From: an uncultured SAR116 cluster alpha proteobacterium
GTDB taxonomy: Bacteria > Pseudomonadota > Alphaproteobacteria > Puniceispirillales > GCA-002684695
Reading direction: 5' to 3'
Length of the DNA: 64,000 nucleotides
Assembly (NCBI GenBank): GCA_902612965.1
Contig: CACMFN010000006.1
Location: forward strand, 1 to 64,000
Below the pieces are notes generated by a model. The model saw nothing but the letters and a program-made list of their open reading frames with translations, was not told where the DNA came from and searched no databases. Every line of letters begins with the position of its first letter. The first letter of the stretch is position 1. The position numbers and the translations under genes are program-made. Shown piece by piece: positions 5,191 to 37,429 of the stretch.

Positions 5191-7233
5191 TTAATGCGTT
5201 CCAATGGCAGCAAGTAATAAAATTGCTACTATATTTATAATCTTTATCATTGGGTTTACTGCTGGACCCGCAGTATCTTTATAAGGGTCACCAACTGTAT
5301 CGCCAGTCACTGCAGCCTTGTGAGCTTCAGAACCCTTACCTCCATGATTACCATCTTCAATATATTTTTTAGCATTATCCCAAGCACCACCACCAGCAGT
5401 CATTGAAATTGCAACATAAAGACCAGTAACAATTGTACCTAACAGCATTGATCCAACAGTTGTTAGTGCTGCACTTTGGTCATATAAAGAAATTATAAAG
5501 TATACAACTATTGGTGCTAAAACTGGTAATAAAGATGGAATAATCATTTCGCGAATTGCAGATTTAGTTAGCATATCAACAGCTCTACTATAGTCTGGTC
5601 TAGTTTTTCCTTCCATAATACCTGGCATTTCCTTAAATTGTCTTCTTACTTCTTCTACAACAGCACCACCAGCACGTCCTACAGCTTGCATACCCATAGA
5701 ACCAAATAAATAAGGGAGCATGCCTCCAATAATTAGACCAACTACAACATATGGATCAGATAATAGAAATGATATTTCCAAATCTGGGAAATAGTGTTCT
5801 AAATCATATGTATAAGCAGCAAACAAAACTAAAGCAGCTAATCCAGCAGAACCAATAGCATAACCTTTTGTAACTGCTTTTGTTGTGTTGCCTACAGCGT
5901 CAAGAGCATCAGTAGTTTTTCTAACATCTTCTTCTAGACCACTCATTTCAGCAATACCACCTGCATTATCAGTTACTGGACCATATGCATCTAAAGCCAC
6001 AACCATGCCTGCAAGGGCTAACATTGTTGTTGCAGCCAAAGCAATTCCATAAATTCCTGCAAGATTATAAGAAAATATAATACCTAAAGCTATTATAATT
6101 GCTGGGACAGCTGTTGCTTCCATTGAAATCGCCAAGCCCTGGATAACATTTGTACCATGCCCTGTCTCAGATGACTGAGCAATAGATTTTACAGGTCTGT
6201 ATTCGGTAGATGTATAATATTCAGTTATCCAAATAATTGCTGCAGTTACAACTAAACCAACAATAGAACTCCAAAATAATGGCATGCTTTCAGTACTGTC
6301 GTCGAACATAAAATCTACTGCAAAATAAATAAATATTGCTGATAGAACAGCAGTAACTATAAAACCTTTATAAAGCGCACCCATAATATTTTCTGATGAC
6401 CCTAATCTAACAAAAAAAGCACCAATAATAGATGCAATTATACATACTCCACCTATAAATAATGGAAGTTCAACATAATTAGTTTGGCCAGAAAACATGA
6501 TTGTTCCTATGAGCATTGTTGCCACTATTGTTACTGCGTAAGTTTCAAATAAATCAGCAGCCATACCAGCACAATCTCCAACATTATCACCAACATTATC
6601 AGCAATTACAGCCGGATTTCTTGGATCATCTTCAGGAATACCTGCTTCAACCTTTCCAACTAAATCAGCACCAACATCTGCACCCTTAGTGAAAATACCA
6701 CCACCAAGACGTGCAAAAATTGAAATTAATGAAGCTCCAAAAGATAATGCAACTAAAGATTCTATAAGCAATCTTGTTTCAACATTAGCAGATAATAAAA
6801 ACGCATAATACCCAGCAACACCTAGCAAACCTAAACCAACAACTAACAAACCAGTAATAGCGCCAGATTTAAAAGCAATGTCAAGGGCAGGTTGAAGACC
6901 TTCTGTTGCGGCTTGTGTTGTTCTTACATTAGCTCTAACGGAAACATTCATACCTATGTAACCTGCTATACCAGATAAAACAGCTCCAATGAGAAAACCA
7001 ATTGATACATATAGCCCTAAAGTTAAAAATAATATTATAGCAACAATTACACCAACAATAGTAATTGTTGTATATTGTCTATTTAAATATGCAGCCGCAC
7101 CTTCTTGAATGGCACCGGCAATTTCTTGCATTTTTTCTGAACCTGCACTTGATGTTAAAATGCTTTGACTAGCCCAAAGACCATAAATCAAAGCACAAAC
7201 TCCGCAAGCAATAGTTATTGTTAAAACAGTCAT
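5191..7233 (-). CDS. hppA: membrane-bound H+-translocating pyrophosphatase, K+-independent type
   Basis: This integral membrane enzyme couples pyrophosphate hydrolysis to proton export. The 680-residue protein has about 16 hydrophobic segments. The substrate-site motifs are intact: DVGADLVGK at 186-194 and DNVGDNVGD at 212-220, plus the late [13 protein letters not shown] loop. The K+-dependence position reads GNTTKA with Lys452; alanine there marks K+-dependent enzymes, so this is predicted K+-independent, as in Rhodospirillum rubrum. It lies downstream of nusB but after a 93-base gap holding a plausible promoter. In a streamlined cell it may recover energy from biosynthetic pyrophosphate. 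Confidence 0.97.
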
Positions 7234-31970: not shown

Positions 31971-32096
31971 AATTTAACTTTCAGCAAAAATTAAAAGAAA
32001 ATATTTAAAGTGCTACTTTTAAAGAGCTTTTTTAATTTAACAAGTTATTAATATCTTAAATTACTTCATTTATTTGGCTCGAAAGCATGGGTACAA

Positions 32097-32333
32097 ATGA
32101 ATGGACAGAATGAAATTATCACCTCATTTATTAATCAAAAACCTAAAACAAAACAATTCTCTGATGCAAACATTGAGAGACTTGAGTTAAAGAGATTTGC
32201 TCAATCCATTCTAAATCCTATTTCTTATCCAGTTTCAGAGGAAGAAGTCTTAAATGGCGTTTCAACATTTGAGGCAATTTCAAAGTCTATAAAAGAAAAA
32301 GGAAATAAAGTATTTACTGGCGAGATTAAATAA
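32097..32333 (+). CDS. hypothetical 78-residue protein
   Basis: This is a small open frame on the plus strand between the MFS and PhyH genes, ending two bases before the convergent PhyH stop. The translation is soluble, rich in charged and polar residues, largely helical by appearance, with no signal peptide, cysteine motif or known domain. No convincing Shine-Dalgarno precedes the ATG. An ATG 12 bases upstream in another frame gives only eight codons. The amino acid composition looks protein-like, but I recognise no family. Confidence 0.5.
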   Translation: MNGQNEIITSFINQKPKTKQFSDANIERLELKRFAQSILNPISYPVSEEEVLNGVSTFEAISKSIKEKGNKVFTGEIK

Positions 32334-32335
32334 AT

Positions 32336-33211
32336 TTATTTATTTTTTACCTTCTTCTGCTGCCCAAAAAAAGATGCCTCTTTTGGAAACTCAGGAAGCT
32401 CTAAGGTAAAAGAGGATGAACGGACAAGACCAGTTCTTTTACCTCTAACAATTTCACCTTCAAACTTATTAGGAAGAGGGTTTTTGTCCAGAGGCATAGC
32501 GTCCTCTGCAACGTAAGTAATAATAAATAAATTTCTATTTTTATTAGTTGAATTGGGCAACGAACCATGAAGAAGTCTTGAATGCATTAAACAGGCATCT
32601 CCAGCTTTACCAGTACATTTTACAGATAAATTTCTATATTTATTCTCAATTGCCTTATCGACTGCGCCAGTAAATACTCCATCCTGCCATAAACTATAAA
32701 TTGCCCCTTTATGGCTTTTGGGGACAACTTCCAAAGGACCATTTTCAAATGTAACATCATCCAGAAAATATAAAACCGTCATAATGTCGTCATTTGAATG
32801 CGGTTCAAACGGAAAATCCTGATGATATTTAACCGCTGTTCCAGAACCAGGCAATTTAAGATTTATTTTAGTCGCAAGTAATTTTACATTAGGTGAAAAA
32901 ATTTGAGTTATTAAATCTAATGCGAGGTTATCTCTTGTAAATGAAAGAAATGTTTCGGAAATTTCAATAGGAGAGGCTATTCTTCTTAATGCAGGATTGT
33001 CATTTGAATGAGTGTTAAGCTCAAGGTCAAAACGAGGTCTACCATCAATTGTCACGCCAAAATTTTTATTATGACTTTTCGAATCCTCTATCCAGGCACT
33101 GACTTCATTATTCATAATTTCTAAAGTTTTGTAATCGACAGCATTTTTAAATAAAACGTATCCGTTTTCATTAAAAAATTGTCTATAGTCCTCAAAATCT
33201 TGTTTTTCCAT
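32336..33211 (-). CDS. phytanoyl-CoA dioxygenase (PhyH) family oxygenase
   Basis: This Fe(II)/2-oxoglutarate oxygenase hydroxylates an unidentified substrate. From the ATG at 33211 (291 residues) the facial triad is visible: His130 and Asp132 in KYHQDF, and a distal His, most likely His215 in RLLHGS. Arg226 follows as the likely 2-oxoglutarate anchor. A TTG 12 codons upstream (33247) keeps the frame open but overlaps a decayed gene start and adds residues unlike the family. The gene is convergent with the 78-residue ORF and divergent from the creatininase gene. Marine alphaproteobacteria carry many PhyH paralogues, so the substrate cannot be inferred. Confidence 0.88.
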   Translation of the reverse strand: MEKQDFEDYRQFFNENGYVLFKNAVDYKTLEIMNNEVSAWIEDSKSHNKNFGVTIDGRPRFDLELNTHSNDNPALRRIASPIEISETFLSFTRDNLALDLITQIFSPNVKLLATKINLKLPGSGTAVKYHQDFPFEPHSNDDIMTVLYFLDDVTFENGPLEVVPKSHKGAIYSLWQDGVFTGAVDKAIENKYRNLSVKCTGKAGDACLMHSRLLHGSLPNSTNKNRNLFIITYVAEDAMPLDKNPLPNKFEGEIVRGKRTGLVRSSSFTLELPEFPKEASFFGQQKKVKNK

Positions 33212-33243
33212 TTTCAGCCAAACCCTAATTAAACTCAAATCTC

Positions 33244-33327
33244 TCAATCTGATAAATAAAAAAACTCATCATTTTTTGTATCAAAAGTTCCAATAACCAG
33301 TATTGTTTTACTAGAATTCTCACTCAT
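33244..33327 (-). pseudogene. 27-codon N-terminal remnant of a Tm-1-like/UPF0261 gene
   Basis: On the minus strand an ATG at 33327 with GAGAGG seven bases upstream (33340-33335) opens a 27-codon frame ending in TGA at 33244. The peptide contains TILVIGTFDTKNDEFFYLSD, which matches the conserved N-terminus of the Tm-1-like ATP-binding (UPF0261) family, normally about 400 residues. The rest of that gene is absent: the PhyH gene begins 33 bases after the stop. It is either a decayed remnant or now serves as a short upstream frame for the PhyH gene. Confidence 0.6.
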
Positions 33328-33417
33328 ATAAAAGCCTCTCAAAAAATTCGATTTACAAATACTAAAAAGCACTCATTATTGATTAAAACACTTTAACGAA
33401 AAGATTAAAACAGCAAA

Positions 33418-34167
33418 ATGCGATTAGAACAAACAGGCTGGATGGAAGTCCGTGACAAGCTTAAAAACTCTCAGGGAATAATTATGGCAACAGGTTCAAC
33501 AGAGCAACACGGTCCAATCGGCTTAATAGGAACTGATACGATTTGCTCTGAGACTATAGCGTCAAGTGTAGCTTCAAAGGCAAATATGTACCTCGCACCT
33601 TCGATAAGTTTTACACCCGCTGAATTTAACATGAAATTCCCAGGAACAATATCAATATCGGCACAAACATTTAAATCACTTTTAAGAGAGGTAACATCCT
33701 CTTTACTCAACCATGGATTTAAATACGTGCTTATCGTGAACGGACACGGTGCCAATATCGATTCAATAAAGGATGTTATGATCGATTTTAACAACAAACT
33801 ATTTTTTAAAAGCTGGTGGGATTTTCCAACAGTCAATGACATTAGAAATAAAGAATTTGGAGACTGGGAGGGAATGCATGCAACTCCATCTGAAATATCA
33901 ATAACACAAATAAATCAAAGAGTTATTGAAAATACTGAATTTAAAAAAATAGCTGAAAATCCACCTCAAAAATTAACAAAGGACTTCATTATTGCTCATT
34001 CGGGGGATAAACACGGCACTGCTGAAGAACATCATAGAGCTTTTCCAGATGGCCGCGTTGGATCGCACTCGGCAATGGCAAATCCCGAAATAGGAAAGAA
34101 AATTGTAAATGCTTCTGTCGAAGGTTTTTTAGAAGAAATTGAGAAACTTAACTCAACTCTTTTATAA
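33418..34167 (+). CDS. creatininase-family metal-dependent amidohydrolase
   Basis: This 249-residue protein belongs to the creatininase/MftE family, which opens cyclic amides such as creatinine. Metal ligands are visible in order: Glu29 and His31 in STEQHG, Asp40 in GTDT, His110 in NGHGAN, and Glu159 in HATPSE. Family members also act on other lactams and in F420/mycofactocin and purine-like pathways, so creatinine is not assured. Its 3' end overlaps the convergent Rieske oxygenase gene by 20 bases, and it is divergent from the PhyH gene across about 200 bases. An amidinotransferase lies 3 kb away. Confidence 0.9.
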   Translation: MRLEQTGWMEVRDKLKNSQGIIMATGSTEQHGPIGLIGTDTICSETIASSVASKANMYLAPSISFTPAEFNMKFPGTISISAQTFKSLLREVTSSLLNHGFKYVLIVNGHGANIDSIKDVMIDFNNKLFFKSWWDFPTVNDIRNKEFGDWEGMHATPSEISITQINQRVIENTEFKKIAENPPQKLTKDFIIAHSGDKHGTAEEHHRAFPDGRVGSHSAMANPEIGKKIVNASVEGFLEEIEKLNSTLL

Positions 34168-35473
34168 ACTCACGACTGCTTTCCTCAGCTTTTTTCCTTC
34201 TCATCTCTGGGCTTAACTGGCTATTTTCTTTAACATTTTTGATCAAGTTTCGGCTGAATTTTCGCTGGTCGACGACATTTAATTTAGCTTTAATCACTGT
34301 ATCCTGCGTGTAAGTTGAAATATGGCCAAATTCATTTTTCTGAGGATGAATGATTTCGCCGCCTTCTGCAAGATTACGGACATGCTTCCTTACTAGATTT
34401 CTTAATTTGGCAACACCTGTATCAGATGATGCTAAATTCTCCATTTTATGGACAGCAATTGGCCTTTGCGATACTTGCGCTTCATAGTCACCAGGCTGTC
34501 TCTGACTATCTTCATATGACCTTTCATTTTTGGTTTGACCAATAAAGTCAATTTTTTCAACACCAACTGAAGATGCGTCACCCTGTTCTCGAGGATCGAG
34601 CTCTTTTGAAAAGTAACGCCATCCAATTGTTTTGGTGTTAGAATTATCTAAAGGCACCATCCACCTTAGCATTGAAGTCCTCTGGAAGAATTTTTCACTC
34701 TCCGCTTCTTCCCATATGGCTCCTGTCTGATTTCCATTCGGCAAAATTGATTCAGTTGTACGTGTCCAAACATATCCGTCTACCTGGCGTGTTTGAATAT
34801 TGATCATACCTAAAGGCGTATCATCGTATTCAATAATTTGGTCTACACCAGACGCAACTCCAAATTGGACACCGCTTGATCGTGCATGAAGATGCACAAC
34901 ATGGATTGGATCCTGTGTGTTTTCATAGACTTGCATCCAATTACAAGGCGTCTCTATTGTAAAAGGTATTTTTTTAACTGTTTTATCCAATTGCGTATCA
35001 TAAATCGGAAATTCAGGTGTATGCTCTGGAGGCCCTAAATAGGCAAATATAATACCTTCCTTTTCGTATGTCTGGTATGCGCCCTGCTTTACTCTTTTAT
35101 GGACAGGGCTTTTACACGGCTCAGAGCCAGCTTTTATGAGTGTTCCGTCAATATCGTATTGCCAGCCATGATAGCTGCATATTAGACCGCAATCGGCAAT
35201 AATACCGTACTCTAATGAAGCACCTCTATGAGCACAATGCTTGTGTAAAAGTCCAATTTGACCTGATTTATCCCTAAAAAGTACAAGTTCTTCACCAAGA
35301 ACTTTAATTAATTTAGGAAGTTCTCCAAGCTCCTCTGATAAAAGAACAGGATGCCAGTAACGTCTTAGTAATTCACCACAAGGTGTGCCTTTTTCAACAA
35401 AAGTAATTTCTTCGTCAAGATCACTTAAATCTGTAACTGTATTATACCCATCAAATTTATATTTTTTTAACAT
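34148..35473 (-). CDS. Rieske non-heme iron oxygenase, alpha-subunit type
   Basis: This 441-residue oxygenase is similar in layout to phthalate dioxygenase-type and vanillate demethylase-type enzymes. The Rieske 2Fe-2S site has Cys80/His82 (CAHRGA) and Cys99/His102 (CSYHGW). The catalytic iron site follows with Asp188, His191 and His196 in the QDPIHVVHLH segment. A TTG at 35494 extends the frame, but the ATG at 35473 has AGAGGA directly upstream and is preferred. No reductase or ferredoxin partner is adjacent, so electrons must come from a protein encoded elsewhere. The substrate is unknown; N- or O-demethylation is common in this group. Confidence 0.9.
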   Translation of the reverse strand: MLKKYKFDGYNTVTDLSDLDEEITFVEKGTPCGELLRRYWHPVLLSEELGELPKLIKVLGEELVLFRDKSGQIGLLHKHCAHRGASLEYGIIADCGLICSYHGWQYDIDGTLIKAGSEPCKSPVHKRVKQGAYQTYEKEGIIFAYLGPPEHTPEFPIYDTQLDKTVKKIPFTIETPCNWMQVYENTQDPIHVVHLHARSSGVQFGVASGVDQIIEYDDTPLGMINIQTRQVDGYVWTRTTESILPNGNQTGAIWEEAESEKFFQRTSMLRWMVPLDNSNTKTIGWRYFSKELDPREQGDASSVGVEKIDFIGQTKNERSYEDSQRQPGDYEAQVSQRPIAVHKMENLASSDTGVAKLRNLVRKHVRNLAEGGEIIHPQKNEFGHISTYTQDTVIKAKLNVVDQRKFSRNLIKNVKENSQLSPEMRRKKAEESSREFIKELS

Positions 35474-35566
35474 TAATCCTCTAAAACCTAACAAATTGTA
35501 TTATTTATAATATTTTATTATTTGTGAATTAAACAAGTAATTTTAAAAATAATAATTATTATTTTT

Positions 35567-37408: not shown

Positions 37409-37429
37409 AGAGTTTTAACTAACAATACT

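Follow-up and report, generated by a model that had tools for sequence, protein, structure and literature searches.

Gene loss by deletion between short direct repeats is a well-known process in bacteria. A gene affected at the locus described here belongs to the Tm-1-like or UPF0261 proteins, which combine the domains PF06792 and PF23189 and are covered by the NCBIfam models NF002676 and PRK02399.1-4; solved structures among the relatives comprise PDB 9mpy and Tm-1 (3wrw, 3wry), and Tm-1-like genes are the subject of a published paper (PMC5028733). For the surrounding genome the closest described setting is a low-GC SAR116 subclade, for which passages of one study report streamlining and a G+C content of about 30% (PMC8547437). 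In the window, by which is meant the whole 64,000-nucleotide stretch of DNA that was analysed, only the start of a UPF0261 gene is present. This arrangement is very probably the result of two deletions in the window's lineage, read from the junctions in one assembly, which cut down a gene cluster shared by the genus and left an inert stump in a decaying catabolic locus.

The comparison set consists of five genomes of the genus, G000 to G004: G000 is the window's own genome (83% complete), G002 (AG-899-J15) and G001 (AG-343-K16) carry SAR116 cluster record titles, and G004 is titled a MAG. UPF0261 matches number two in each of G001 and G002, one in each of G000 and G004, and none in G003, which is 61% complete. 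In a class-wide search, 12 of 385 genomes have a UPF0261 homologue at E <= 1e-60, G000 being included by virtue of a paralogue elsewhere in the genome. A gene for an OYE-type flavoenzyme, which adjoins UPF0261 in the close relatives, does so in only one of the 14 loci fetched for the class-wide matches with about 1.5 kb of flank (L095, from G367), and no PhyH gene was found in the longer stretches taken from four of the genomes with class-wide matches, the G367 stretch reaching the end of its contig just past the OYE gene.

Table 1. Features of the locus, in window coordinates.
Feature	Position	Strand	Details
Left deletion junction	32053..32062	.	about 9.2 kb of G002 (C1 217678-226870) replaced by about 10 bp; left edge uncertain by about 20 bp
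Gfo/Idh/MocA oxidoreductase stump, last 89 codons and stop	32064..32333	+	92% amino acid identity to G002 residues 246-334; pN/pS 0.92
PhyH-family gene (Fe(II)/2-oxoglutarate dioxygenase type), intact	32336..33211	-	291 aa; HQD at 130, H at 215; 97% identical to G002
OYE-type flavoenzyme remnant, last 8 codons and TAG (QIERFEFN, stop)	33225..33251	-	same reading in window and G002
UPF0261 gene stump	33244..33327	-	27 codons and TGA; 24 whole codons precede the 9-bp repeat
Right deletion junction, single copy of 9-bp direct repeat ATCAGATTG	33245..33253	-	repeat flanks 3,181 bp in G002 (L011 9236-9244 and 6055-6063)
Divergent intergenic region, creatininase / UPF0261 start	33328..33417	.	SD-like GAGAGG 33335-33340; 0 of 90 bases differ from G002
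Creatininase-family gene, retained	33418..34167	+	
Rieske-type oxygenase gene, retained	34148..35494	-	

The UPF0261 stump and the right-hand junction

The stump is a frame on the minus strand which runs from an ATG at 33327, 7 nt behind the SD-like site, to a TGA at 33246-33244 and encodes the 27-mer MSENSSKTILVIGTFDTKNDEFFYLSD. In an hmmscan search of Pfam-A that allowed E values up to 10, this peptide matches a single family, UPF0261 (PF06792; E 4.1e-4), with stump residues 7-27 aligned to profile positions 1-21 of 176; at 20.8 bits the match does not reach the curated cut-off (27 bits), as is expected for a stump, and PF23189 is absent, the frame ending after 27 codons. Any doubt about the identity of the peptide is removed by comparison with G002: window positions 33450-33245 match the beginning of an intact UPF0261 gene there, with its upstream region, at 205 of 206 bases, the 9-mer ATCAGATTG included. 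The first-pass annotation, which had read this SD-preceded frame as a UPF0261 N-terminus, is thus borne out by both the Pfam match and the DNA identity, and its proposal that the remainder of the gene had been deleted, to be checked against close relatives, agrees with the finding of the intact copy at exactly this site (G002 C1, L011 9363..8077, minus strand). The G002 protein (413 aa) contains both domains, with 202.7 bits for PF23189, and passes NF002676 at 587.5 bits (cut-off 556). A recent origin of the stump by duplication of the second UPF0261 gene in the genome was considered and rejected: that gene (G000 C1:252332) shows about 50% identity and has its own counterpart in G002.

The intact order in G002 is creatininase, divergent from UPF0261, followed by the OYE-type flavoenzyme (680 aa) and then PhyH, and G001 has the same UPF0261 - OYE - PhyH order; in both genomes Gfo/Idh faces these genes. 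The OYE protein of G002 matches Oxidored_FMN, while its best NCBIfam models, mycofactocin OYE 2 and BaiCD, both score under their cut-offs. Past the 9-mer, the window resumes in G002 sequence 3,181 bp away, in the last eight codons of the OYE gene, and because the missing G002 segment has the 9-mer at either end, the event can be described as a deletion between direct repeats. When breakpoint pairs at least 500 bp apart were drawn at random in a 7-kb stretch, 22 of 400,000 shared at least 9 bp. At this site G002 keeps UPF0261 and OYE intact, and its flanks are about 97% identical to those of the window. Two genes were accordingly lost on this side, UPF0261 and OYE, where the annotation had envisaged the loss of one full gene: the deletion of UPF0261 stands, and its extent was larger. 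The stop codon of the stump is supplied by OYE tail sequence read out of frame, and the peptide LRDLSLIR, formerly suggested as a further UPF0261 remnant after a frameshift, is ruled out as such, being the OYE tail and stop in a third frame. The distance from the stump's TGA to the PhyH ATG at 33211, previously given as 33 bases, is 32 by count of the bases between them.

The opposite polarity, in which G002 is derived and the extra genes were inserted there, would account for their absence from the window, and the flanking repeats could be read as a target-site duplication. It is contradicted by the truncated 5' and 3' gene ends retained in the window: G002 and G001 have these genes in full, and G004 shows part of them. 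The reading is hardly credible.

The left-hand junction and sequence constraint

A second break lies 1.2 kb from the first, on the other side of PhyH. Collinearity of the window with G002 C1 breaks off after 32052 (G002 217677) and is restored at 32063 (G002 226871), a second alignment carrying the left-side match about 20 bases further than 32052. The 9,193 bp missing here encode a 163-aa frame with a weak GAF match, an amidohydrolase, hydantoinase A/B, a TRAP transporter (DctP, a 166-aa middle frame taken as DctQ, and DctM) and residues 1-245 of the Gfo/Idh oxidoreductase. No microhomology was found at this junction, and the two deletions may therefore have arisen by different mechanisms. 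The hydantoinase - TRAP - Gfo/Idh - PhyH order also occurs in G004 (C50, a contig ending inside PhyH), and G001 C20 is collinear from the genes at 26.8-32 kb of the window through the hydantoinases; since parts of the same order are found in both of these genomes, the long G002 layout is ancestral.

There is no support for a transfer of the lost genes to another place in the window's genome. DNA searches of G000 (83% complete, as above) with G002 C1 222000-231399 returned only the two flanks and two weak paralogue matches, and those with C1 215000-220000 recovered the left flank plus two other matches and nothing else, among the 40 candidates per genome that were scored in each case out of a larger initial number, and with C1 220001-221999 falling between the two queries. 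The best OYE protein match in G000 is a paralogue on C14, and the site itself is contiguous; paralogues of lost genes persist in the genome, at 50% identity for UPF0261 and 44% for OYE.

The Gfo/Idh stump shows drift. Relative to G002, its 89 codons contain 7 nonsynonymous and 2 synonymous changes, against 8 and 17 in PhyH (pN/pS 0.12), 7 and 21 in the Rieske gene (0.09), 24 and 50 in the ABC-F gene (0.12) and 13 and 13 in the creatininase gene (0.27). One-sided Fisher tests of the stump give p 0.007 against PhyH and Rieske together (15/38) and p 0.012 against all four neighbouring genes (52/101), both tests having been picked after the data were seen. Between full genes, the same 89 codons give pN/pS 0.16 for G002 against G004 and 0.47 for G002 against G001, the latter value indicating that this end of the protein drifts over longer distances anyway. 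When the changes are polarised with G004, E288K, S289R, N324K and S326N fall on the window branch and D269N on the G002 branch, while positions 329 and 331 cannot be polarised and no synonymous change is clearly the window's; E288, changed in the window, is common to G002, G004 and G001. This relaxed constraint is direct evidence that the left deletion is real and indirect support for the right one. The UPF0261 stump differs from G002 by one nonsynonymous change (L22F) and no synonymous change in 27 codons, at a position which is L or I in 14 listed homologue N-terminus rows, and a single change in so few codons is too little to show anything alone.

If the window's genome derives from a single cell, as G002 appears to, the right-hand junction could instead be an in vitro chimera of whole-genome amplification, on which the drift of Gfo/Idh has no bearing. 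The relatives G002 and G001 carry AG- names, which are taken here to denote single amplified cells. Passages of a study of MDA chimeras describe frequent short complementarity at the joint, reaching 21 bp and seen especially where the joined segments lie less than 10 kb apart (PMC1855051), a pattern which a 9-bp match over 3.2 kb fits. In the E. coli data given in those passages, however, 406 of 475 chimeras were inversions, and direct joins within 10 kb, most of them with matching bases, were rare (11 of 475). In about 176 kb of G000 aligned to G002 (C1, C6 and 40 of the 46 kb of C14 against G002 C1 and C2), which form 10 blocks of at least 300 bp at more than 85% identity, none of the seven block junctions is inverted, and each G000 contig keeps one orientation across the blocks. 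The locus was, moreover, already decaying, as is seen at the left break 1.2 kb away, where the Gfo/Idh stump has accumulated amino acid changes, one of them at E288. An amplification artefact is therefore improbable at the right-hand scar, and even more so at the left-hand one.

Other differences from the relatives were observed further away. Collinearity with G002 C1 ends right after the ABC-F gene, from window position 37410 onward, and the next 19.6 kb have long matches to G001 and G004 and match G002 in short pieces only. On C14 of G000, near 6916-6928 (L093), about 33 kb of G002 (C1 83069-116458) are absent; the first 17 kb of that segment, searched in G000, gave the edge and weak matches only, and, judged by eye, the edge resembles the 3' end of a tRNA, which would fit an island integrated at a tRNA gene.

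PhyH and its upstream region

Between the two scars the PhyH frame is intact (Pfam PhyH, E 6.4e-25), with the HQD and H residues placed as in G002 and G001; these HxD...H residues are presumably the metal ligands. The low pN/pS of the gene cannot show selection since the deletions, because the value spans the time both before and after them. Among 18 PhyH loci in genome contigs, several of which end nearby, UPF0261 and OYE were seen beside PhyH only in the G002 and G001 records, so PhyH also occurs outside this cluster. A PhyH gene 63% identical to that of the window lies beside frames resembling nuo genes by eye in L035 4878-10915 (MED-G116), and the window's PhyH is 2.8 kb from nuo-like frames, so that PhyH and nuo may be old neighbours.

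It had been suggested that the deletion brought PhyH newly under the translation signals of UPF0261. This does not hold, because in both G002 and G001 the UPF0261 and OYE genes already precede PhyH on the same strand, and in the window PhyH keeps its own ATG and spacer: the 42-43 bases ahead of the ATG differ from G002 by the loss of one T and by two substitutions, and the AGGG-containing spacer is kept. The identity of the 90-bp divergent region to that of G002 suggests that the former operon promoter can still serve PhyH, in which case transcription would run through the stump.

The other suggestion of the first-pass annotation was that the short frame now acts as a leader, translation-coupled or regulatory, for PhyH. 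Translation of the stump, with termination 32 nt upstream, would then re-initiate or tune PhyH synthesis, and the deletion would have made PhyH, once a gene of a catabolic operon, a stand-alone dioxygenase under leader control. The unchanged upstream region, the stump's own SD-like site and the nearness of its stop to the PhyH ATG are compatible with such a role. A consensus scan of 33150-33500 yielded no support for it, revealing no terminator-like site and no more promoter-like sites than expected (1 found against 1.6); PhyH retains its own upstream spacer, the divergent creatininase gene shares the unchanged upstream region, and the peptide is a passive consequence of where the break fell. 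In place of the short frame, G001 and G002 have the full UPF0261 gene. A leader function is very improbable, and the 27-residue peptide probably has no function.

Probable loss of the cluster and comparison with known systems

Under the preferred reading of two deletions, the ancestral cluster would have comprised amidohydrolase, hydantoinase A/B, TRAP transporter and Gfo/Idh genes facing PhyH, the OYE flavoenzyme and UPF0261. Recombination or slippage between the 9-bp repeats would have reduced UPF0261 to its first 24-27 codons and OYE to its last 8, after which the UPF0261 frame enters the OYE tail and stops at once, and the other deletion would have removed the whole segment ahead of the final 89 codons of Gfo/Idh. 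Flanked by the two scars, PhyH survives with its own start codon, preceded by the former upstream region of UPF0261. The presence of hydantoinase, amidohydrolase, creatininase, Rieske and TRAP genes suggests a role of the cluster in the uptake and breakdown of a nitrogen-containing small molecule. What the locus provides is the exact scar of an accessory catabolic cluster being lost in a marine SAR116-type lineage, in which PhyH, creatininase and the Rieske oxygenase outlive the rest, together with a warning to annotators that the 27-codon frame should not be called a gene.

The case is one of ordinary gene loss. Compared with full UPF0261 proteins, the stump is the start of such a gene, in which 21 of the 176 N-terminal profile positions are left and the C-terminal domain is lost. 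As in known deletions between short direct repeats, 3,181 bp have been lost here between 9-bp repeats with stumps left on either side; nothing about the right scar is unusual in that comparison, while the neighbouring second break differs in having no repeat. The window's G+C content of 31%, and the fact that accessory genes are also being lost, resemble what passages of the study of the low-GC SAR116 subclade describe (PMC8547437), a likeness by G+C rather than a placement in that subclade.
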